This document shows positions 10,920 through 28,677 of a stretch of 49,522 nt of DNA, one piece after another. Below the pieces are notes generated by a model, which saw nothing but the letters and a program-made list of their open reading frames with translations, had not been told where the DNA came from and ran no database searches. Position 1 is the first letter of the stretch, and each line of letters opens with the position of its first letter. The stretch covers positions 1 to 49,522 of the forward strand of contig JANYAH010000296.1 of NCBI GenBank assembly GCA_025361425.1, written 5' to 3'. The translations under genes and the position numbers were made by a program. Source of the stretch: Candidatus Solibacter sp. (GTDB lineage: Bacteria; Acidobacteriota; Terriglobia; Bryobacterales; Bryobacteraceae).

Positions 10920-11534
10920 TTAGCTCTTTTCAGGTTGGCGTTTGGCTTTGACAAATTCGAGCTCGGTCTGCTTCGGTATACCGGGCTCGAAGCATCTGCG
11001 GCAGCGCGCTTCGTACATATCGGAAGCGCCGACCACGATCAGGTCCTCCGACCCGCGCAGGCGTTGCGTGTGCTTGGCGGGGTTGCCGCAGCGCACGCAG
11101 ATGGCGAGCGTCTTGGTGATGGATTCGGCTTGCGCCAGCAGGTCCGGGATGGGGGCGAACGGGCGCCCCAGGTAGTCGGTATCGAGGCCGGAGACGATTA
11201 CCTGTTTGCCGCTATCGGCGAGGCGCTGCGCGACATCCACCAGGTGAGGTCCCATGAAGTTGGCCTCGTCGACGCCCACCACCTCGCTGCGCCAATCGAT
11301 GCGCTCAATGATTTCGCTGGCGTTGCTCACCACTTGAGAGTGCATTCGCAGATCGCCGTGGGAAACAATTTCGTTGTCGGAATAGCGGTTGTCGATGGCG
11401 GGCTTGAAGACTTCGACGCGTTTGCGGGCAATCATGGCGCGTCGCAGGCGCCGGATCAACTCCTCGCTCTTGCCCGAAAACATGGGTCCACAGATGACTT
11501 CGATCCAGCCGACGTTGCCAGTGATGATATCCAT
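10920..11534 (-). CDS. tdk: thymidine kinase (type II)
   Basis: The 204-residue enzyme phosphorylates thymidine with ATP in the salvage pathway. The Walker A motif GPMFSGKS is at residues 16-23. The DEANF block has the expected catalytic Glu (about residue 90). The zinc-binding region has a CxxC pair (CVRC) and a second CxxC (CRRC) in the usual lasso domain, and the substrate-binding lasso is complete. Length is normal for the family. It may cooperate functionally with DeoC (41135-42022) in deoxynucleoside salvage, though it is not linked to it. The ATG start opens directly on the conserved WIEVICGPMFSGKS block after nine residues. Confidence 0.96.
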   Translation of the reverse strand: MDIITGNVGWIEVICGPMFSGKSEELIRRLRRAMIARKRVEVFKPAIDNRYSDNEIVSHGDLRMHSQVVSNASEIIERIDWRSEVVGVDEANFMGPHLVDVAQRLADSGKQVIVSGLDTDYLGRPFAPIPDLLAQAESITKTLAICVRCGNPAKHTQRLRGSEDLIVVGASDMYEARCRRCFEPGIPKQTELEFVKAKRQPEKS

Positions 11535-14006: not shown

Positions 14007-14648
14007 TCAGCGCGGCAGACGTTCCCGAAGCACCGAATAGAAACTTCGCGCCAAATTCGTGGCCGCCAGCGTCGCCGCGTGGTCGTCACCAGACGTTTCC
14101 CACAGGATTACACGTACCAAACTGGTGTCGGTGCGCCCGTCCCGGATGGCGTCGGCAACTTGCCAGAGTTTGGCTGCCCACTCGCCCGCAACCACGCGCC
14201 GTGGCCTTTGATACCAGAACAGAACCACGGCGCGTTCCCGGCCCTTGGTGACTAAATAACGGTTGACGGTGATTGCGCCGTCCGGGGTATCCAGCGTAAC
14301 CTCGCCGGTCACCTCGGGCATCCAACCCGTTCCCGGTAAGCACATCTTGGGCGAGTGCGGCTGCTTGTGTCCCTCGCGCTGAGACTGGTACCAGAAGACT
14401 AACAAACTGCCGAGCAGACCCGCCTGTCGATGGACATAGGTCCGGCTCAGCACCCGGTCAGGGCCGAGTTCGGCTGCAATGTCCGCCGCAATCGGGTCTT
14501 CCCGGAACTGCTGCCACTCCCCAAACTCGGCAGGAAAGCCCGAAAGGTCGGGTGGCACCGGCACACGTTCCCCGCCTACGGCCCAATGAGCTAGGGCGAA
14601 CTGCCCTATCAGCAACAACGGCGCCAGTATCAGTCTGCGCTCAAGCAT
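14007..14648 (-). CDS. exosortase-associated protein EpsI
   Basis: The 213-residue protein has one N-terminal membrane segment (about 5-25) and a soluble, presumably periplasmic, domain. The block HSPKMCLPGTGW (residues 98-109) is the signature of the EpsI family (TIGR02914 type) that accompanies exosortases; LLVFWYQSQREGH and VVLFWYQRPRR also follow the family. EpsI-type proteins are fused to or encoded beside exosortases and are thought to support export or processing of surface polymers and proteins. Its start overlaps the exosortase stop by 8 nt, indicating translational coupling. Confidence 0.9.
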   Translation of the reverse strand: MLERRLILAPLLLIGQFALAHWAVGGERVPVPPDLSGFPAEFGEWQQFREDPIAADIAAELGPDRVLSRTYVHRQAGLLGSLLVFWYQSQREGHKQPHSPKMCLPGTGWMPEVTGEVTLDTPDGAITVNRYLVTKGRERAVVLFWYQRPRRVVAGEWAAKLWQVADAIRDGRTDTSLVRVILWETSGDDHAATLAATNLARSFYSVLRERLPR

Positions 14649-15468
14649 GGAAACGAGCCCATACCGCGTGGAAAACGCCGCGCATCAGGACCAGCGTCGC
14701 CACGCACAATACAAAGACGAGGAAGCCGGCGATGCTGTGAGGTGTACCCCCGTCCAGCACGGGGAGCAGGCCGGAGGCTGCCACTCTCAGCGCATTCGCG
14801 ACCATCGCGATTGGGACAACCATTGCAAGAAGGGCAAAACGCATCCAGGGCTTCGCATCTGAAAGGTAGGCGTATACGACGGCGATGAACCCAAGCGAAA
14901 GCAGGTAGCGGACGCCATTGCAGGCTTCCTGCACGGAAACGCGGTGCCCGGCCACATCCAGGATGTTGCCTTCCCGGACTACCGCAACCCCGGCAACCGC
15001 CAACATGGCGGCGGCCATGCGGCTGGTAAGGATTTGCAGGGGAAACGTTACCTCGTTATAGACAATCGCCAGCTTGGGCAGCATGAAGAGCGTAAGCAGA
15101 ATCGGAAGAGCCCACGCACGCAGGAACACGAATCCGCCCAGAAACAGTACCGCGCCGGCAACTGATACAAGGAACGCCACCGAACTGGCGAAAAGACCTC
15201 CGCCAAACGCAGCGACGATCCGCAAGCCAGCGCCGGCCGCCAGAACCGCAAGGCCCCACCAGCTGGGCTCCGCCGGAAGCGCCAGCCACCGGTCGCGCTC
15301 CCTCCAAACAATCCATAGAACCACGATGGGCACAACGAAACCATGCGACATGTCTTCGTCGTTAGACCACTGGTCGAACATCCCGCGCAGCGTAGAAAAA
15401 TAGCAGACCACAAGTGCCGCGGCGGTCAATACAATAATGGCCTGTCGTGTTCTCGTCATGCCCGACAA
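14641..15468 (-). CDS. exosortase (transpeptidase-like membrane cysteine protease)
   Basis: The 275-residue integral membrane protein has about 8 hydrophobic segments. The presumed catalytic triad of exosortases is present: Cys183 in QEACNGVRYL, Arg228 in ANALRVA and His244 in TPHSIAG. The N-terminal block WSNDEDMSHGFVVP is also diagnostic. Exosortases recognise C-terminal PEP-CTERM-like tripartite signals, cleave the substrate and transfer it to a surface carrier. The gene sits 75 bp downstream of a protein carrying such a tail and overlaps EpsI by 8 nt, so the three genes form one leftward operon. The exact Xrt subclass cannot be assigned by eye. Confidence 0.93.
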   Translation of the reverse strand: MSGMTRTRQAIIVLTAAALVVCYFSTLRGMFDQWSNDEDMSHGFVVPIVVLWIVWRERDRWLALPAEPSWWGLAVLAAGAGLRIVAAFGGGLFASSVAFLVSVAGAVLFLGGFVFLRAWALPILLTLFMLPKLAIVYNEVTFPLQILTSRMAAAMLAVAGVAVVREGNILDVAGHRVSVQEACNGVRYLLSLGFIAVVYAYLSDAKPWMRFALLAMVVPIAMVANALRVAASGLLPVLDGGTPHSIAGFLVFVLCVATLVLMRGVFHAVWARFHA

Positions 15469-15543: not shown

Positions 15544-16623
15544 TCAGACCCTTCGGAACTGCGCCAGCAACTGTTCTCGCTTCAGGTAAACCGTAGTCAG
15601 AGCGAGACCTGCGATGACCAGAATCAGCGTTGGCGGAGCGGGCACGCTTGGCGGCGGCACGTTGGTTCCAACTAACAACCCGCAATTACTCGAGGCGAGT
15701 GACTCTCCTGAATCTGTGACCCGGGCTAAGTAGCTAAATGTCCCGGCAGCGGCCGGCGTCCCGGTGATCGCGCCCGTGGACGCGTTGAGCGCCAGGCCCG
15801 TAGGCAGGCTGCCTCCGATGATCGAGTAGTTGAGCGGCGGCGTCCCGTTGGCTGCCACCAAAGCCGAGGCGTAGGGTTGGCCCACTGGCCCGAAATTGGC
15901 CGCGCATGTCAGCGAGAGCGATCCCGCCCCGCCGGACGGCGAAGGATTTGTAATCATGTTGCCCTGTAGCGTAACCGCGCCGTTCCGTGCCAACGCTCTG
16001 CCGTTTAGCACTGCGCCGGTGTTGACCGTGACGGCTATGTTGGCCATGATGGTGCCGTTGAAAGCAGTGCCGGCGTTAAGAGTTGCCGAACTTCCGACCT
16101 GCCAAAAAACGTTGGAAGCCTTGGCGCCGCCGATGAGGTTCACGTTACTATTGTTGACCGCGGTCTTTAAGGTGCTCCCGATCTTGAAGATGAAGATAGC
16201 ATTCGGATCGCCGTTACCGTTGAGGGTGACGGTCCCGGTGATGTTTTCCTCTGACGAGTTGCAGTAAACGCCGGGCAGGAGAGTCATGTTGCCGAGGTCC
16301 CCGGGCAGAACAGGGCCAATACATGGTCGTGCGGCTGCGTCGTTATACGCGGCTGTCAAGTCGTTTTGGGCGGTGCCTGCCACAGCGTCACCGGCGTGTA
16401 TCACTCCGTTGACCACGATTCCGGGTCCAAATCCAATTACCTGCGTACCTGGGCTTAATCCAATATTCCCATCCACCACGGAATTGCCGGTGTTGGTGAT
16501 CGTGGAGAACGCTAGAACCGCGAAATTGCCGGCTGTTCCGAGGACTACCGGAGTTTGAGCCGTTAGGCAGAGACTGGACGCCAGAAGCAGCCCGATCTTC
16601 TTCATAGACCCGTTTTGACTCAT
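15544..16623 (-). CDS. DUF3494 ice-binding-type surface protein with putative Ig domain and exosortase sorting tail
   Basis: After a signal peptide, residues about 28-235 match the DUF3494 ice-binding/adhesin beta-helix (LGTAGNFAVLAFSTITNTG, VDGNIGLSPG, NAIFIFKIGSTL, FWQVGSSATLN, FNGTIMA). A putative Ig domain of the He_PIG kind follows (LPTGLALNASTGAITGTP). The C-terminus has the tripartite sorting layout: a Pro-rich VPAPPT motif, a hydrophobic helix (LILVIAGLALTTVYL) and basic KREQLLAQFRRV. The motif is not the canonical PEP. The domain occurs in ice-binding proteins and in surface adhesins, so antifreeze activity is not implied. ATG 16623 is chosen (GGGAGG 10 nt upstream); a TTG at 16626 is equally possible. 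First gene of the exosortase operon. Confidence 0.85.
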   Translation of the reverse strand: MSQNGSMKKIGLLLASSLCLTAQTPVVLGTAGNFAVLAFSTITNTGNSVVDGNIGLSPGTQVIGFGPGIVVNGVIHAGDAVAGTAQNDLTAAYNDAAARPCIGPVLPGDLGNMTLLPGVYCNSSEENITGTVTLNGNGDPNAIFIFKIGSTLKTAVNNSNVNLIGGAKASNVFWQVGSSATLNAGTAFNGTIMANIAVTVNTGAVLNGRALARNGAVTLQGNMITNPSPSGGAGSLSLTCAANFGPVGQPYASALVAANGTPPLNYSIIGGSLPTGLALNASTGAITGTPAAAGTFSYLARVTDSGESLASSNCGLLVGTNVPPPSVPAPPTLILVIAGLALTTVYLKREQLLAQFRRV

Positions 16624-16626
16624 CAA

Positions 16627-22073: not shown

Positions 22074-25000
22074 ATGCGTACATTGATTCGTTTGGTGGCA
22101 CCTCTAGTTCTGCTGGCGGCCAGCGCGGGGGCACAACTGGTAATCAGCCAAACATACGGCGGCGGCGGCAATAGCGGCGCCACTTACAAGAATGATTTCG
22201 TTGAGATCTTCAATCGGGGCAGCGTCACCCTGAGTCTGAGCGGCCTCTCGGTGCAGTACGCCTCAGGGACGGGCAGTTTCACGTCAAAAACAGACTTAGC
22301 CGCTGCTTCGCTGGCGGCCGGACAGTACTATCTGGTGAAAATGGCAGCCGGGGCTGGCGGCACGGTGGACCTGCCCACACCTAGCCAGGCAAGTAGTATC
22401 GGGATGAGCGGGACGAATGGCAAGGTGGCGCTAGTGGACTCGACCATTTTGCTGAATTGCGGCGCCACCCCGGCCCTGCCGGCGCTACCAGTGCCCTGCA
22501 CGCCAAGCGACCTGGCCCACGTCATCGACATGGTCGGCTACGGTGCGAACTTGTTCGAAGGCACCGTGGGACCGCTGTTGACCAACGCGACGGCCGCGCT
22601 GCGCGGCGCTGCCGGGTGCATCGACGCGAATAACAACGGCTTGGACTTCACCAGCGGGGCGCCCACTCCGCGCACCACGGCATCGACGCCGGTTACCTGC
22701 CCGGTGCATGTGTATATCAGCGCCTTCGTCCCGGCGGCCACGGTAAACATGCCTTACTCGCTGACGTTCACGGCGGGCGGCGGCACCGGACCGTATACGG
22801 TTGCCCAGACATCGGGCACGCTGCCGAACGGCCTGGCACTTTCGGGCAGCGTCCTGAGCGGCACGCCCACCGACACCGCCACCTACACGTTCGCGATACA
22901 GGCGACGGACGCCAACTCGATTTCGGGCAGCCAAAGCTTCACTATCACGCCGGCGGCGGCGATGACCTACGCGCCGAACTCGCTCGCGGGCCTGATCTAT
23001 CCGGCGCCCCTCAGCCAGTTGATGACCACGAACCGCTCGGCGTGCGATTACACGAAAACCAGTTTTCCGGCGTGGCTCACCCTGACACAAGCCACGCACG
23101 GAGTGGGGAATTTCACGTTGGCGGGTACGCCGCCAGCCATGGGCAGCTACAATTTTTCCGTGGACGCCTCATGCGTGAACGGCACGGGATCGCAGGCTTA
23201 CACGCTGGTATCGGGGACGTTGATCACCTTCTCACCGGCCACTCTGCCCAACGGCACGAAGGGCACGGCATATTCGCAGGACCTGACGACGGATGGCGCC
23301 GGGTGCGGTTTTTCGATCACCTCCGGAGCGCTGTATGCGGGATTCTCATTGACCGGGACCGGCACTACGGCGACCCTCCACGGCACACCGGCGTTGTCCG
23401 GCGGGGCCAGTTTCACGGTATCGGCGAACTGCGCCAATAATGGGGTGGGTTCGCAGGCGTACACTCTCGCGGTACCGCTCGCGTGCGGCACGTCTAAAAC
23501 CCTTATCCACGACGTGCAGGGCAGCGGGTCCACCAGTCCGATGGTGGGCACGAAAGTGGAACTCGAAGGCATCGTCACCGGGAGCTACCAGAGCAAAGCG
23601 ACCGGCCTGGGCGGCTTTTACATGCAGGAACCCGACGCCAGTTGGGACAGTAATCCGGCCACGTCGGAAGGCATCTTCGTATACGACAACGCGTTCGGCG
23701 CGGCGGTGAACCGGGGCGACCGGGTGCGCGTGCAGGGCATGGTGGACGAATACGCCAGTTCCAGCAACGGCCTCACATCCTCGCTCACGGAACTGGGTTC
23801 GGTAGGGGGCGTTCTGGTGTGCGACACGGACAACTCGTTTACCGTCACGCCCATCTCGCTGCCCGTCAGCGAACTCTCGGTATTTGAGCAGTATGAAGGC
23901 ATGGCGGTGCAATTCCCGCAGCAGATGGTGGTCAGCGGCGTGTATCAGGAAGGGTCGTTCGGCTCGCTGGATCTTTCGCCGAACTCGCGTCTCTTCACGC
24001 CCACGTCGGTTGTGGCGCCGGGCGCGGCGGCCATCGCGCTGGATAGCGCCAATCTGCGGAGTAAGATCACCCTGGATGACGCCAGTACGTTGTCGAATGC
24101 CACCCTGTACCCGGCGCCGTATCCGGAAGGCGGCCTGAGCGCCGCGAACACCGTACGCGCAGGGAACTGGGTGAACTTCAACAGCACGACGAACACCTAC
24201 ACGCCGGTGACGGGCGTGCTGGACGACCGCTACGGCGCCTGGCGAATTCAACCGCTGGGTACGTACACATTCCACTCTCCCGCGCAGGTCAATGCCCGCA
24301 AGGCGGCGCCGGACGCGGTAGGTGGACGCATCAAGGTGGGCAGCGCGAACCTGCTCAACTTCTTCACCACTCTGGGCGCTTCCAGTATCTGCGGACCCAG
24401 CGGCACGGTGAGTTGCCGAGGCGCCAGCAACTCCACCGAATACCAGCGGCAACTCGACAAATTGGTGGCCGAACTGATCGGCTTGAACGCCGATATCCTC
24501 GGTCTCTCGGAGCTCGAAAATAACCCGGCGGCTTCCGCCGACGCGCTGGTGAACGCCCTCAACGCGGCGGTTGGGGCGGGCACGTACGCCTATATCAATA
24601 CCGGGACGACGGGCACGGATTCGATTCGCAACGCCCTCCTCTATAAGCCCGCGCGGGTGACGCCGGTGGGCCCCTATGCCGTGTACGAGCCGCCAGTATT
24701 CGGCGTGCGTCCCAGCATCGCGCAACTGTGGAAGCCGGCCACCGGCGTTAAGACCAGCTTGCAGCAGTTCACCGTGGTGGTGAATCACTTCCGGTCCAAG
24801 GGTGGCGATTGCTCAGGGCAGGGCGACCCGGATGCGAACGATGGACAGGGCACATGCAATTTGAACCGCCTCACCACGGCGCAGGGGGTCGTGAACTGGC
24901 TGGCGGGTAACCCGATGAGCGACCCGGCGACCGCCGCCAACCGCAAAATTCTGATGGTGGGAGATTTCAACGCATACTTCATGGAAGACCCCATCCAGGC

Positions 25001-25517
25001 GATGATCGACCCGGCGTTCACCAAGCCGGGTTATTTGCCCAACGCCAACGCCACCTTCACCAACCTGATCGACAAATTCCTGGGCGCCGCGGCGTACTCC
25101 TACCAGTTCCAATCCGAATCGGGATACCTGGACCACGCGCTATCGAGCCCGCCGTTGACGAAGTTGGTGACTGGGGTGACGGAGTGGCACAACAACTCCG
25201 ACGAACCTCCCTTCATCGACTACAACACCGAGAGCAAGAGTGCGACTCAGCTTGCGAACTACTACGCGGCCGACGCATTCCGGGCCACGGATCACGACCC
25301 CATCCTGCTCGGCTTCAACCCTCTGCCCGGCGATTTGAACGACGACGGCGTGGTGGATGCAACCGACCAGTTGCTCCTGCGCGCGCAGTTCGGAAAGGCC
25401 GTCGGGGCGCCGAGCGTGGATCGCCGCATGGACTATGACGGCGACGGTGTCATCTCGCTCAACGATTACAGGGTGTGGTACACCCTCTACCGCGCCTACC
25501 AGGCAGCAACCATCTAA
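22074..25517 (+). CDS. secreted multidomain nuclease (ExeM/NucH-like) with C-terminal dockerin
   Basis: ATG 22074 is chosen because GGAG lies 7 nt upstream and a signal peptide (MRTLIRLVAPLVLLAASAGA) starts there; product 1147 residues. Order of domains: lamin-tail domain (about 20-205; VISQTYGGGGNSGA, DFVEIFNRG); three Ig-like repeats (about 210-470, LPNGLALSGSVLSGTP); an OB-fold region typical of ExeM/NucH (about 475-720); and an endonuclease/exonuclease/phosphatase domain (about 740-1080) with LSELENN, VVNHFRSKG, MVGDFNAY, YLDHALSS and TDHDPI, which carry the metal and catalytic Glu, His, Asp/Asn and Asp-His. The last ~55 residues are a type-I dockerin with two calcium loops (DLNDDGVVDATD and DYDGDGVISLND). 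It probably degrades extracellular DNA. The cohesin-like gene follows by 9 bp. Confidence 0.92.
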   Translation: MRTLIRLVAPLVLLAASAGAQLVISQTYGGGGNSGATYKNDFVEIFNRGSVTLSLSGLSVQYASGTGSFTSKTDLAAASLAAGQYYLVKMAAGAGGTVDLPTPSQASSIGMSGTNGKVALVDSTILLNCGATPALPALPVPCTPSDLAHVIDMVGYGANLFEGTVGPLLTNATAALRGAAGCIDANNNGLDFTSGAPTPRTTASTPVTCPVHVYISAFVPAATVNMPYSLTFTAGGGTGPYTVAQTSGTLPNGLALSGSVLSGTPTDTATYTFAIQATDANSISGSQSFTITPAAAMTYAPNSLAGLIYPAPLSQLMTTNRSACDYTKTSFPAWLTLTQATHGVGNFTLAGTPPAMGSYNFSVDASCVNGTGSQAYTLVSGTLITFSPATLPNGTKGTAYSQDLTTDGAGCGFSITSGALYAGFSLTGTGTTATLHGTPALSGGASFTVSANCANNGVGSQAYTLAVPLACGTSKTLIHDVQGSGSTSPMVGTKVELEGIVTGSYQSKATGLGGFYMQEPDASWDSNPATSEGIFVYDNAFGAAVNRGDRVRVQGMVDEYASSSNGLTSSLTELGSVGGVLVCDTDNSFTVTPISLPVSELSVFEQYEGMAVQFPQQMVVSGVYQEGSFGSLDLSPNSRLFTPTSVVAPGAAAIALDSANLRSKITLDDASTLSNATLYPAPYPEGGLSAANTVRAGNWVNFNSTTNTYTPVTGVLDDRYGAWRIQPLGTYTFHSPAQVNARKAAPDAVGGRIKVGSANLLNFFTTLGASSICGPSGTVSCRGASNSTEYQRQLDKLVAELIGLNADILGLSELENNPAASADALVNALNAAVGAGTYAYINTGTTGTDSIRNALLYKPARVTPVGPYAVYEPPVFGVRPSIAQLWKPATGVKTSLQQFTVVVNHFRSKGGDCSGQGDPDANDGQGTCNLNRLTTAQGVVNWLAGNPMSDPATAANRKILMVGDFNAYFMEDPIQAMIDPAFTKPGYLPNANATFTNLIDKFLGAAAYSYQFQSESGYLDHALSSPPLTKLVTGVTEWHNNSDEPPFIDYNTESKSATQLANYYAADAFRATDHDPILLGFNPLPGDLNDDGVVDATDQLLLRAQFGKAVGAPSVDRRMDYDGDGVISLNDYRVWYTLYRAYQAATI

Positions 25518-25526
25518 GGACGAAGA

Positions 25527-26090
25527 ATGATGAAACGCATACTCTTCACAACACTTCTTGCGGCGGTCTCGGCAGCCTTGTTGCCGGCGGCGACTATCAG
25601 CCTCCAGTTCTCTTCCAATCAGGTCACGCTCGGTGACAATTTCACAGTCACCGTAAACGCGACGAACGTGTTTGCGGGCAGGCCCGAGGATATGTTGCTT
25701 GCGTTCGGGCTGAACCCTTTCATCTCGCTGCCAGGCAATGTCATTTTCCTGGGCGCCTCCGTGGGGCCGCGGTTTGCCGACGACTCGGGATCCTTCCTTG
25801 GAACCGCGGTCGCGGGGGATGTCTTTCCCGGGCTGGGCGCTGGTGACTTTGTCGAACCCCTGACGCTGGCTACACTGACCTTTCGAGCGATCGGTAGTGG
25901 TTTTGTGGACGTGGGAGTAGTGAGTGATACCTCGGATCTGAACCAGGGACTCGCCTTTCTGGCGGATTCCAACAACGTCGAACTCACCGCGTCGGGGACC
26001 ATCCAGGTAGTGCCGGAACCGGCGGTGGCATGGCTGCTGGCTCCCGGCCTGGGCGCCCTGCTGCTGATGCGGCGGCGGAGACGCGCGTAG
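25527..26090 (+). CDS. cohesin-like protein with PEP-CTERM anchor
   Basis: The 187-residue protein has a signal peptide (about 1-22), one beta-sandwich domain and a canonical PEP-CTERM tail (VVPEPAVAWLL, hydrophobic helix, RRRRRA), so it should be an exosortase substrate. The middle domain (about 24-155) follows the cohesin pattern: TISLQFSSNQVTLGDNFTVT (first strands), a hydrophobic core with LAFGLNPF and VIFLGASVG, then EPLTLATLTFRAIGSGFVDV near the end. Cohesin domains bind dockerins, and the preceding gene ends in one. AAGGA sits a few nt before the ATG pair (25527/25530). The cohesin call rests on fold-level pattern and needs a profile search; the PEP-CTERM call is strong. Confidence 0.82.
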   Translation: MMKRILFTTLLAAVSAALLPAATISLQFSSNQVTLGDNFTVTVNATNVFAGRPEDMLLAFGLNPFISLPGNVIFLGASVGPRFADDSGSFLGTAVAGDVFPGLGAGDFVEPLTLATLTFRAIGSGFVDVGVVSDTSDLNQGLAFLADSNNVELTASGTIQVVPEPAVAWLLAPGLGALLLMRRRRRA

Positions 26091-26163: not shown

Positions 26164-26961
26164 GTGGATCTCGAAAAGACACTGCTGCGCAAAGTTGGAG
26201 AAGCCATTCACCGCTACCGCATGATTCGCGACGGCGACCGCGTGGCCGTCGCGCTCTCTGGGGGCAAGGATTCGGCGACCATGCTGGAAGCCCTGCTGCT
26301 GCTCCAGAAACGCGCGCCGATCGACTTTTCCCTCCGCGCTTTCACCGTGGAGCAGGGCAAGTTCTTGCGGCCCATCGAACCCCTCGGGGAATATCTGAAG
26401 GCGCGCGGCATTCCCTGGACCTATTTCCGCGACGCGCCTTCGCTGCGTCTGCTGGAAGAGCAACCCGGCCACGGCTGCGACCTGTGCAGCCGCTACCGGC
26501 GCCGCGCCGTATACGAGATCGCGGCCAATCTGGGCTGCAACGTGATCGCGTTCGGCCACACCGCGGACGATTTCTGCGAGGCCCTGCTGCGCAATACCAT
26601 GTTCACCGGCAGGCTATGTTCGCTGCCGCCGGTGAGCCACTCCCGCAAGCACGAGTACCGCTTGATCCGCCCCCTGGTCTTCGTTACCGAAAACATCACC
26701 ACGGCCTACGCCGCTTCTTGCGGCGTGCCGGTGGTACCGTGCGGTTGTTCACAGCGCACCGGTACCGTGCGCCGGGCCCTGCGCGACATGTTCGCGGATC
26801 TGGAGCGCGAGCACCCGCATCTCAAGGAAACCATGCTTTCCGCCATGGGGAACGTCAATACCAGCCGCCTGCTGGATACGCGCTTCCTCAATCTGGATGG
26901 CGAAAATAGCGAATCGGAAACACAAACTCAGGAATTGTTTCCGATTGTCACGGAATTGTAA
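26164..26961 (+). CDS. ttcA: tRNA 2-thiocytidine(32) synthetase TtcA-like
   Basis: The 265-residue PP-loop ATPase has SGGKDSATML (ATP-binding loop), the CDLCSRYRRRAVYEIA block with a CxxC pair, FGHTADDFCEALLRN and VVPCGCSQ. These are the TtcA features: ATP adenylates C32 of the tRNA and a cysteine-ligated iron-sulfur cluster supplies sulfur. MFTGRLCSLPP and LKETMLSAMGNVN also match the family. Start codon is GTG. The last ~20 residues (SESETQTQELF region) are not conserved. The DUF47 gene begins 68 bp downstream on the same strand. Confidence 0.9.
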   Translation: MDLEKTLLRKVGEAIHRYRMIRDGDRVAVALSGGKDSATMLEALLLLQKRAPIDFSLRAFTVEQGKFLRPIEPLGEYLKARGIPWTYFRDAPSLRLLEEQPGHGCDLCSRYRRRAVYEIAANLGCNVIAFGHTADDFCEALLRNTMFTGRLCSLPPVSHSRKHEYRLIRPLVFVTENITTAYAASCGVPVVPCGCSQRTGTVRRALRDMFADLEREHPHLKETMLSAMGNVNTSRLLDTRFLNLDGENSESETQTQELFPIVTEL

Positions 26962-27029
26962 CCGTCTCTCGATTGACCCGCGCCCTCGAATCCGATTACC
27001 ATGGGTTTTCTCAATATCAAGCCCAAATT

Positions 27030-27644
27030 ATGAGACTGCTGCCACGCGAGGAGAAGTTTTACCACCTCTTTCTGAAACAGGTGGAGATCATCTCGGAAGC
27101 GGCACGCCTCCTCCTGGAAGGCGTCCGAGGCGGCAACGCGCGCATGGCGACCGCCGCCACCGAAATCAACGTCCTGGAACACCGGGGGGATGAAGTCATC
27201 CACGAATTGTTCACACGGCTCAACCAGACGTTCATTACACCCATAGATCCGGAGGACATTCACAATCTCTCCTCCGCCCTGGACAACGTCCTGGATGGTG
27301 TGGAAGACACGGCGCACCGCTTGGTGTCCTACCGCATCGACCCGGTCCCTGCTGCCATGGTCGAGCTTGCGGAGATTGTGGCAAGCTGCGCCAGTTCCCT
27401 CAAGGCCGCGTTCGAGGCGCTGGAAAGCAACGGCCCCATCATGGAGCACTGCATCGAAATCAATCGCCTGGAAAACCACGCGGACCTGATCGGCAGAAGC
27501 AGTGTGGTGGAACTGTTCGACAAGGAGAAGGACCCCATCACCCTGATCAAGCTCAAAGAAGTCTACGAGTTCTTCGAGGGCACCGTCGATAGCTGCGAAG
27601 ACGTGGCCGACGTTCTACAGAACGTGGTGGTCAAGAACAGCTAG
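27030..27644 (+). CDS. DUF47/PhoU-like accessory protein of phosphate transport
   Basis: An all-helical, 204-residue protein of the DUF47 (TIGR00153-like) family. The start MRLLPREEKFYHLF at 27030 is where family members begin; the open frame extends upstream to 26973, but that part has no similarity. Blocks such as NVLEHRGDEVIHELFTRLN, IDPEDIHNLSSALDNVLDG and ENHADLIGRS follow the family's PhoU-like heptads and acidic metal-binding residues. It is encoded 1 bp before the PiT gene, the usual arrangement, and probably regulates or couples that permease. Confidence 0.92.
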   Translation: MRLLPREEKFYHLFLKQVEIISEAARLLLEGVRGGNARMATAATEINVLEHRGDEVIHELFTRLNQTFITPIDPEDIHNLSSALDNVLDGVEDTAHRLVSYRIDPVPAAMVELAEIVASCASSLKAAFEALESNGPIMEHCIEINRLENHADLIGRSSVVELFDKEKDPITLIKLKEVYEFFEGTVDSCEDVADVLQNVVVKNS

Positions 27645-27645
27645 C

Positions 27646-28677
27646 ATGTCCGTCTTCACGCTCGCCGTACTCATCATCGCAATCGCGCTGGTGTTCGATT
27701 ACATCAACGGTTTCCACGATGCGGCGAATTCCATCGCTACCATTGTGGCCACACGGGTACTCACGCCGTTTCAGGCGGTGCTGTGGGCCGCGTTCTTCAA
27801 TTTCGTTGCGGCCTTCCTCTTCAGCACGGCAGTCGCCAAGACGATAGGCAAGGGCTTCGTGGACGTCGGCCTAGTCACGCCCTACGTGATTATGGCAGGC
27901 CTGCTGGGCGCCATCGTTTGGGACCTGATTACGTGGTGGCTCGGCCTGCCCACCAGTTCCTCGCACGCCTTGATCGGCGGGTACGCCGGCGCCGCCATGG
28001 CACACGTGGGCCTGATGCGCGGCTTCGGTCACAGCCTGGAAGCGCTCAACGTCAGCTCCACCGGCCAGTGGCCCTTCACTTTGAAGATGATCATCGGCGC
28101 CCCGTTGATCGGCTTGGTCTCCGCCTACACGCTGATGGTGCTGGTCTATTGGCTGTTCCGCCACTCCACCCCGTCGAGAATGGACAAGTATTTCCGCAGG
28201 CTCCAGTTGCTTTCGGCGGCGGCATTCAGCCTGGCGCACGGCTCCAACGATGCGCAGAAGACCGCGGGAATCATCACCGGCGTGCTCTTCGCGTCGCATT
28301 ACCTGAAAACCTTCGACGTTCCGCTCTGGGTGATTCTGGCCGCCCATGCGGCAATCGCCCTAGGCACGCTGAGCGGGGGCTGGCGCATCGTTCACACCAT
28401 GGGCGGACGCCTCACGCGCCTCAAACCGCGCAGTGGGTTCTGCGCCGAAACAGGGGCCGCGGTGAGCGTTCTACTTTCCACCTATATGGGCACGCCCGTG
28501 TCCACCACGCACGCCATCGCCGGCGCCATTGCGGGCGTCGGCAGCATCCAGCGCATGAAAGCCGTCCGCTGGGGCATCGCCACCAACATCGTGTGGGCGT
28601 GGGTGCTGACCATCCCTGCCGCCGCGACCATTGCGTGGCTTTCCTACTTCGCGCTGCACTTCACCATCGCAAAATAG
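27646..28677 (+). CDS. inorganic phosphate transporter, PiT family
   Basis: The 343-residue inner-membrane permease has about 9-10 hydrophobic segments. The two inverted PiT signatures are present: DYINGFHDAANSIATIV near the N-terminus and LAHGSNDAQKTAGII in the second half. STHAIAGAIAGVGS near the C-terminus mirrors SSHALIGGYAGAAMA. It imports metal-phosphate with protons at low affinity. It is co-transcribed with the DUF47 gene (1-bp gap). The start lies just after the preceding stop, consistent with translational coupling. Confidence 0.95.
   Translation: MSVFTLAVLIIAIALVFDYINGFHDAANSIATIVATRVLTPFQAVLWAAFFNFVAAFLFSTAVAKTIGKGFVDVGLVTPYVIMAGLLGAIVWDLITWWLGLPTSSSHALIGGYAGAAMAHVGLMRGFGHSLEALNVSSTGQWPFTLKMIIGAPLIGLVSAYTLMVLVYWLFRHSTPSRMDKYFRRLQLLSAAAFSLAHGSNDAQKTAGIITGVLFASHYLKTFDVPLWVILAAHAAIALGTLSGGWRIVHTMGGRLTRLKPRSGFCAETGAAVSVLLSTYMGTPVSTTHAIAGAIAGVGSIQRMKAVRWGIATNIVWAWVLTIPAAATIAWLSYFALHFTIAK

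Follow-up and report, generated by a model that had tools for sequence, protein, structure and literature searches.

A dockerin-tailed secreted nuclease and an adjacent PEP-CTERM protein with a divergent cohesin-like domain suggest modular surface display in Bryobacteraceae

The window, meaning the whole stretch of DNA analysed here (49,522 nucleotides, contig JANYAH010000296.1 of Candidatus Solibacter sp., Acidobacteriota, Bryobacteraceae), contains two adjacent genes, one for a secreted nuclease that ends in a dockerin and one for a small secreted protein with a PEP-CTERM tail. The features of this pair are as follows (positions are those of the window; G, C and L numbers below are our handles for genomes, contigs and loci).

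22074..25517, + strand: nuclease gene, 1147 amino acids, ExeM/NucH-type secreted endonuclease
25326..25514, + strand: C-terminal type I dockerin module of the nuclease (PF00404), containing two calcium-loop repeats
25527..26090, + strand: PEP-CTERM gene, 187 amino acids, with a signal peptide (by eye), one putative divergent cohesin domain and a C-terminal PEP-CTERM tail
26010..26081, + strand: PEP-CTERM sorting signal (TIGR02595, residues 162-185, 17.5 bits, cut-off 16)

The nuclease is composed of a signal peptide (by eye), a lamin-tail domain (LTD), He_PIG Ig-like domains, a nuclease domain and the C-terminal dockerin, and PF00932, PF05345 and PF03372 exceeded their cut-offs in a Pfam scan. 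It belongs to the ExeM/NucH family, with residues 498-1082 matching model positions 2-545 of 546 of NF033681 (E 1.9e-152, 508.9 bits, cut-off 300), and has short motifs at residues 812, 904, 963 and 1072 that we take to be of the EEP-nuclease active-site type. Assignment to the ExeM-GG exception family NF033680 (the GlyGly-CTERM form) was rejected, with 212.9 bits against a cut-off of 1300 and a dockerin at the C-terminus. The nuclease has no membrane-sorting tail of its own. Its residues 1085-1132 match Dockerin_1 (PF00404; E 1.5e-5, 25.5 bits, cut-off 22.9), the sole dockerin above the cut-off in the source genome. PF00404 also matches the tails of 11/11 homologous dockerin nucleases at E ≤ 1, and a profile of these 11 tails matches solved cellulosomal dockerins in the PDB (best 2y3n, E 9.2e-11). 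As judged by eye, calcium loop 1 is complete in all 11 homologues, and the final acidic residue of loop 2 is kept in ten and lost in one (L086). The single-sequence AlphaFold model of the dockerin tail is poor, with a predicted local distance difference test score (pLDDT) of 56.

The PEP-CTERM gene starts 9 base pairs (bp) after the nuclease stop codon, and the tail of its product consists of VPEP, a hydrophobic stretch and an arginine run. The protein shows the features by which PEP-CTERM proteins are recognized, namely the PEP, the hydrophobic stretch and the basic end, together with exosortases in the genome; the Pfam model PF07589 stays under its cut-off (17.1 versus 20.7 bits). An earlier note on this DNA had described a secreted nuclease of 1147 residues with a two-loop type I dockerin, followed after 9 bp by a small secreted PEP-CTERM gene, and had proposed a PF00404 search of the nuclease tail. 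Sizes and coordinates proved right, the TIGR02595 match agrees, and the dockerin search was positive.

The gene pair recurs among relatives. In the 237 genomes of the window's family that were searched, the nuclease part has matches at E ≤ 1e-10 in 34, including ten close homologues besides the window (E ≤ 4.7e-77), all ten with the same type of tail. In 7 of these 11 (the window, G614, G532, G608, G610, G660 and G609) the nuclease is directly followed by an intact gene for a small secreted PEP-CTERM protein, with an intergenic gap of 9 bp in the window and 14-29 bp in the other six. A profile of the seven partners gave strong matches (E ≤ 1.3e-62) at just those seven nuclease-adjacent sites in the 237 genomes, with up to 14 candidates scored per genome. 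The comparison of tails and neighbours leaves out five loci (L051-L055) found by a contig search with the nuclease. Outside the family, eight ExeM genes from the phylum showed no dockerin tail by eye, one of them (L099) being without a complete C-terminus. The conservation of the gene pair, which the earlier note had put forward as a check, is borne out in 7 of the 11 dockerin nucleases of the family and broken in one, and it extends to other dockerin proteins.

Weaker full-length matches of the seven-member profile pointed to other dockerin-tailed secreted proteins and led to a PF00404 survey of the family, which at E ≤ 1e-4 returned 94 matches in 68 of the 237 genomes. Of these, 91 were examined, the window's own match and two further matches inside one G629 protein being left out. 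After exclusion of 14 matches away from the C-terminus, three at the ends of contigs and two from one duplicated locus, 72 genes with a C-terminal dockerin remained. A single adjacent PEP-CTERM partner gene accompanies 37 of the 72, one of them cut by a contig end and one convergent instead of downstream. The partners are confined to three dockerin classes (25/31 in class D1, 7/8 in class D2 and 5/8 of the nuclease class in the survey, together 37/47), and the remaining classes have none in 25 genes. Six D1 genes are without an adjacent partner, and for three of them the fetched stretch contains a cohesin PEP-CTERM gene at another position. As a control, a PEP-CTERM gene was sought within 150 bp downstream of large open reading frames (ORFs) filtered as non-dockerin in the same loci, and was present for 4/187; three of the four (L219, L227 and L235) turned out to be dockerin-survey genes and the fourth immediately precedes the cohesin gene at the G615 dockerin locus. 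Since the few control cases are all tied to dockerin loci, the adjacency of dockerin and PEP-CTERM genes is not due to chance. In G518 (L206:3035-4984) a single ORF contains a cohesin, a PEP-CTERM-like tail, a second signal-like stretch, a passenger and a dockerin, which points to either a fusion of the pair or the loss of a stop codon.

Cohesins have a beta-sandwich (jelly-roll) fold. For the analysis of the partners as possible cohesins, 39 were aligned: seven from the nuclease class, 24 from class D1, seven from class D2 and the partner of L219, which has an internal dockerin. A second profile, A4, comprises 25 of them (24 D1 and L219), excludes the window protein, and retains signal peptide and tail. 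The cohesin family PF00963 matches 21/39 partners at E ≤ 1 and 19/25 of the A4 partners at E ≤ 0.01 (best 4.9e-16). In the PDB, the 24 best matches of the 39-partner profile are all chains of scaffoldins or cohesins (E ≤ 0.009; top 3l8q, E 4e-11), antibodies and others appearing from E 0.033 on. When signal peptides and tails were removed, hhalign linked the nuclease-partner profile to the D1 profile at 96.6% (E 6.4e-10) with a score of 59.6, as compared with at most 19.6 in 100 column shuffles. The A4 profile finds the window protein in its own genome with E 8e-15 over positions 1-186 of 188, and the sole other A4 match at E ≤ 1e-6 there is a cohesin in a secretin-like protein (32 of 70 candidates scored). 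Because these profiles link the window protein to the D1 and A4 partners, most of which match PF00963, we classify it by this indirect route as a divergent cohesin; the assignment of the class D2 partners as cohesins is less certain. The description of the neighbour as cohesin-like in the earlier note thus holds by profile comparison (hhalign, A4) and fails by the single-sequence PF00963 search. A search with the 187-residue protein alone in 101 relatives and 396 genomes of the phylum returned, besides itself, only tails and weak pieces, and the single-sequence AlphaFold model of its mature form is poor, with a pLDDT of 37. Cohesin profiles run in all frames over 26 loci of the other dockerin classes gave three matches and no small PEP-CTERM cohesin gene.

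Passengers of the 32 non-nuclease pairs (L219 included) have only the dockerin in common (32/32), the next most frequent family being He_PIG (8/32). Other passenger domains are P-domain and MG2, each in two passengers, FGE-sulfatase, caspase and others in single ones, and Ig-repeat domains. Within class D1, cohesin distances correlate with dockerin distances (Spearman 0.38, permutation 0.0005, n = 24; 0.30 and 0.0075, n = 20, after removal of near duplicates) in a test that takes no account of species relatedness and with cohesin cores that retain some signal peptide. The corresponding values for cohesin versus neighbouring-passenger distance were 0.02 (n = 24) and -0.11 (n = 20). By these sequence distances, cohesin divergence tracks the dockerin, not the passenger.

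The arrangement is similar to the type I cellulosome in having related cohesin and dockerin domains, the enzyme bearing the dockerin and an envelope protein the cohesin. In contrast to cellulosomes, each anchor here has one cohesin and stands beside one dockerin protein as a gene pair, a PEP-CTERM tail replaces the SLH domains or sortase motif as anchor, and the passengers are a nuclease and other proteins. A cellulosome in the source genome was considered and rejected, given its one dockerin above the cut-off and two cohesin matches, one in the window protein and one in the secretin-like protein (32/70 candidates scored). The roles of most PEP-CTERM proteins are unknown. The window protein shares with exosortase substrates the signal peptide, the C-terminal PEP, the hydrophobic stretch and the basic end, and differs in that its folded part is apparently a cohesin. 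Because this cohesin adjoins a dockerin gene, the protein may be suggested to function as a receptor. A different comparison is provided by ExeM of Shewanella oneidensis, a membrane-linked nuclease of the same family with LTD and EEP domains, in which a GG motif, a hydrophobic stretch and four arginines are part of the enzyme itself (PMC6085458). These are absent from the window nuclease, and a comparable hydrophobic-plus-arginine tail is found here on the separate cohesin protein. Since ExeM carries the tail itself, the window pair can be viewed as an ExeM-type anchor that may have moved to a second protein.

We consider it probable that the nuclease and its neighbour form a private plug-and-socket pair with an exosortase-sorted cohesin as the anchor. 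Both proteins would be exported via their Sec-type signal peptides (by eye), and an exosortase would recognize the tail of the exported 187-residue protein, so that its cohesin would either stay attached to the cell envelope or be released through it. The nuclease would then be held by calcium-dependent binding of its dockerin to that cohesin, presumably one to one, and would cut extracellular DNA beside the cell, which might use the products. We infer a surface-held single-enzyme complex. Many other secreted proteins of the family would follow the same arrangement, each with its own neighbouring cohesin.

Several results weigh against this proposal. The check suggested in the earlier note, a PF00963 search with the product of the gene at 25527, gave no match up to E 10, the six closest relatives of the protein likewise miss PF00963 when searched singly, and in the PDB the seven-member nuclease-partner profile hit only two antibody chains (E 0.99 and 1.2) and no cohesin. 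For class D2, PF00963 matches 1/7 partners (E 0.19), and the 86% hhalign value against D1 dropped to 24% with strictly cut signal and tail. On the dockerin side, those of G614 and G642 were missed by the genome-wide PF00404 search at E ≤ 0.01. In G493 (L095) the partner is a broken remnant beside a nuclease that retains its dockerin, and in G024, G642 and G550 other genes follow the dockerin nuclease and no partner is adjacent. The survey counts include three of the 37 partners added by eye after the automatic filter, a rescue applied to D1 and D2 only, and the split between classes uses names given after the neighbours had been seen. Among the three cohesin matches in the other-class loci, one lies within the dockerin protein itself and two are weak ones in a 384- or 385-amino acid ORF on the opposite strand. 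Finally, two draft genomes (G020 and G526) of the 31 that bear pairs have no exosortase.

The best surviving alternative concerns the end point and not the binding: the cohesin could be sorted by the exosortase and then shed, carrying the nuclease into the matrix or the medium instead of holding it at the surface. Where Gram-negative PEP-CTERM proteins finally end up has not been settled. Shewanella ExeM was found almost only at the inner membrane, and its activity on plates was independent of rhombosortase processing (PMC6085458), and because of these findings the location of the window nuclease cannot be read from its sequence alone. Shedding is compatible with the binding half of our proposal and nothing in the present data speaks against it; we regard it as possible, if somewhat unlikely. 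A more doubtful explanation is an operon of two secreted proteins that do not bind each other, the dockerin serving as a calcium-stabilized cap and the PEP-CTERM protein as an independent matrix protein. The nucleases of G024, G642 and G550, which retain the dockerin-like tail, fit such a role. However, dockerins are known to bind cohesins, which the neighbour appears to be; the neighbour follows the dockerin and not the passenger, and the G518 ORF joins cohesin, PEP-CTERM-like tail, passenger and dockerin in one frame. It is improbable that the nuclease dockerin binds another cohesin, such as that of the secretin-like protein, to aid type II secretion while the PEP-CTERM gene has another role: this protein (GspD by eye) has the only PF00963 match above the cut-off in the source genome and is also found by A4, but the cohesin genes beside dockerins with unrelated passengers and the cohesin-dockerin distance correlation would be left unexplained, and in family f11 an A4 match lies in a frame of 761-911 amino acids in 8/8 sampled genomes (secretin identity assumed from size), none of which has a dockerin at E ≤ 1e-7. 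The secretin cohesin is located as follows.

L003, contig C220, 13057-13326: cohesin at the C-terminus of the secretin-like protein (PF00963, above cut-off)

A4 matches in secretin-sized frames were also seen in many genomes of the phylum, including ones in which no dockerin was detected.

Returning to the plug-and-socket pair, the tail of the cohesin protein would have to be processed by an exosortase, and exosortases were found in 29 of the 31 pair-bearing genomes. One is encoded in the window, in the following neighbourhood.

14007..14648, - strand: EpsI-type exosortase-associated protein (TIGR02914, 101.4 bits, cut-off 42.8), adjoining the exosortase
14641..15468, - strand: exosortase (TIGR02602, 149.6 bits, cut-off 105.55), about 10 kb from the PEP-CTERM gene
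15544-16626, - strand: ice-binding-like protein, immediate neighbour of the exosortase; its C-terminus has a hydrophobic, proline-rich tail (by eye)

The exosortase reported in the earlier note at about 10 kb is therefore real, as its TIGR02602 score shows. It is a possible, not an established, processor of the 187-residue protein. The source genome has three exosortases, and because the two outside the window score better and the ice-binding-like neighbour, possibly a dedicated substrate, has a tail of its own, the window exosortase may not serve the cohesin protein.

Beyond the nuclease, we lean towards the view that exosortase-sorted single cohesins are the family's general modular surface-display kit, in which diverse passengers would each carry a dockerin and be matched by a co-diverging cohesin anchor, a split form of the ExeM-type C-terminal anchor, with lipoprotein cohesins used likewise in other families of the phylum. 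Outside the family, 41 dockerin matches were compared from 40 of the 42 genomes with a match (two from G105, one from each of the others). As judged by motif, none of these 41 is followed by a PEP-CTERM gene; seven do not sit at the C-terminus, and of those, two run off the stretch. Cohesins were sought there with a profile test, a crude cohesin regular expression recovering only 18/39 known partners. The profile test recovered 23/23 positive control loci, a control that is partly circular because the partners of those loci helped to build the profiles. It revealed cohesin ORFs in 5/40 loci, and those of G167 (L287), G190 (L286) and G226 (L288) have a lipoprotein-like start (lipobox by eye) in dockerin loci. 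From their sequences, these lipoprotein-like cohesins look like the same idea with another anchor.

Non-cellulosomal cohesins and dockerins have been described in anaerobic methanotrophic (ANME) archaea, for which exosortases and PGF/PEF-CTERM signals have likewise been listed (PMC9012536, PMC5244752). Some of the proteins described there join one dockerin to as many as five cohesins, or an S-layer part to dockerin domains. Where the sorting signals come up in the sections available, the context is cytochromes and S-layer proteins and not cohesins. PMC9012536 suggests that attachment through dockerin and cohesin takes place on the surface of archaea. The accessible part of the review of methanotrophic archaea treats cohesin/dockerin and exosortase separately and calls the function of the non-cellulosomal modules not known (PMC5244752); both papers cite Peer et al. 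2009. For acidobacterial genomes, the part of PMC5900883 available to us mentions dockerin once, in a supplementary legend. A literature search that most subscription journals fall outside of, and that is accordingly weak evidence, found no publication pairing a cohesin or dockerin with PEP-CTERM. If the proposed arrangement is correct, it would provide a concrete use for non-cellulosomal cohesins and dockerins and a concrete job, as receptors for dockerin proteins, for a set of PEP-CTERM proteins. It would also make a single bacterial family a source of many natural one-to-one cohesin-dockerin pairs for use in display and assembly.

Two further groups of window genes lie on either side of the pair.

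10923-11534, - strand: thymidine kinase, upstream of the pair
26164-28677: TtcA-like, TIGR00153 and PiT-like genes, on the downstream side of the pair, each match below its family cut-off

A PiT phosphate transporter and a thymidine kinase, both downstream, had been proposed to use the nuclease products; the PiT-like gene is indeed downstream, below its cut-off, and the thymidine kinase is upstream on the - strand.

The survey also yielded minor observations on other loci. In G546 and G549 (L217:4414-5565 and L225:2164-3318) a 384- or 385-amino acid protein with a weak cohesin match is encoded opposite a dockerin gene of class D5. Another dockerin class, with the signature INEALG...VINAALGLGC, is found on very large proteins (L221, L230, L233, L246, L251 and L256, five of them in G499); it has no cohesin PEP-CTERM neighbour, and the L233 protein itself holds a cohesin match. 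In G532 the dockerin of contig C4 (L156) recurs in opposite orientations near both ends of contig C1 (L155, 8158 bases), and one of the L155 copies has a shortened PEP-CTERM gene, which may reflect an assembly end or a mobile copy.

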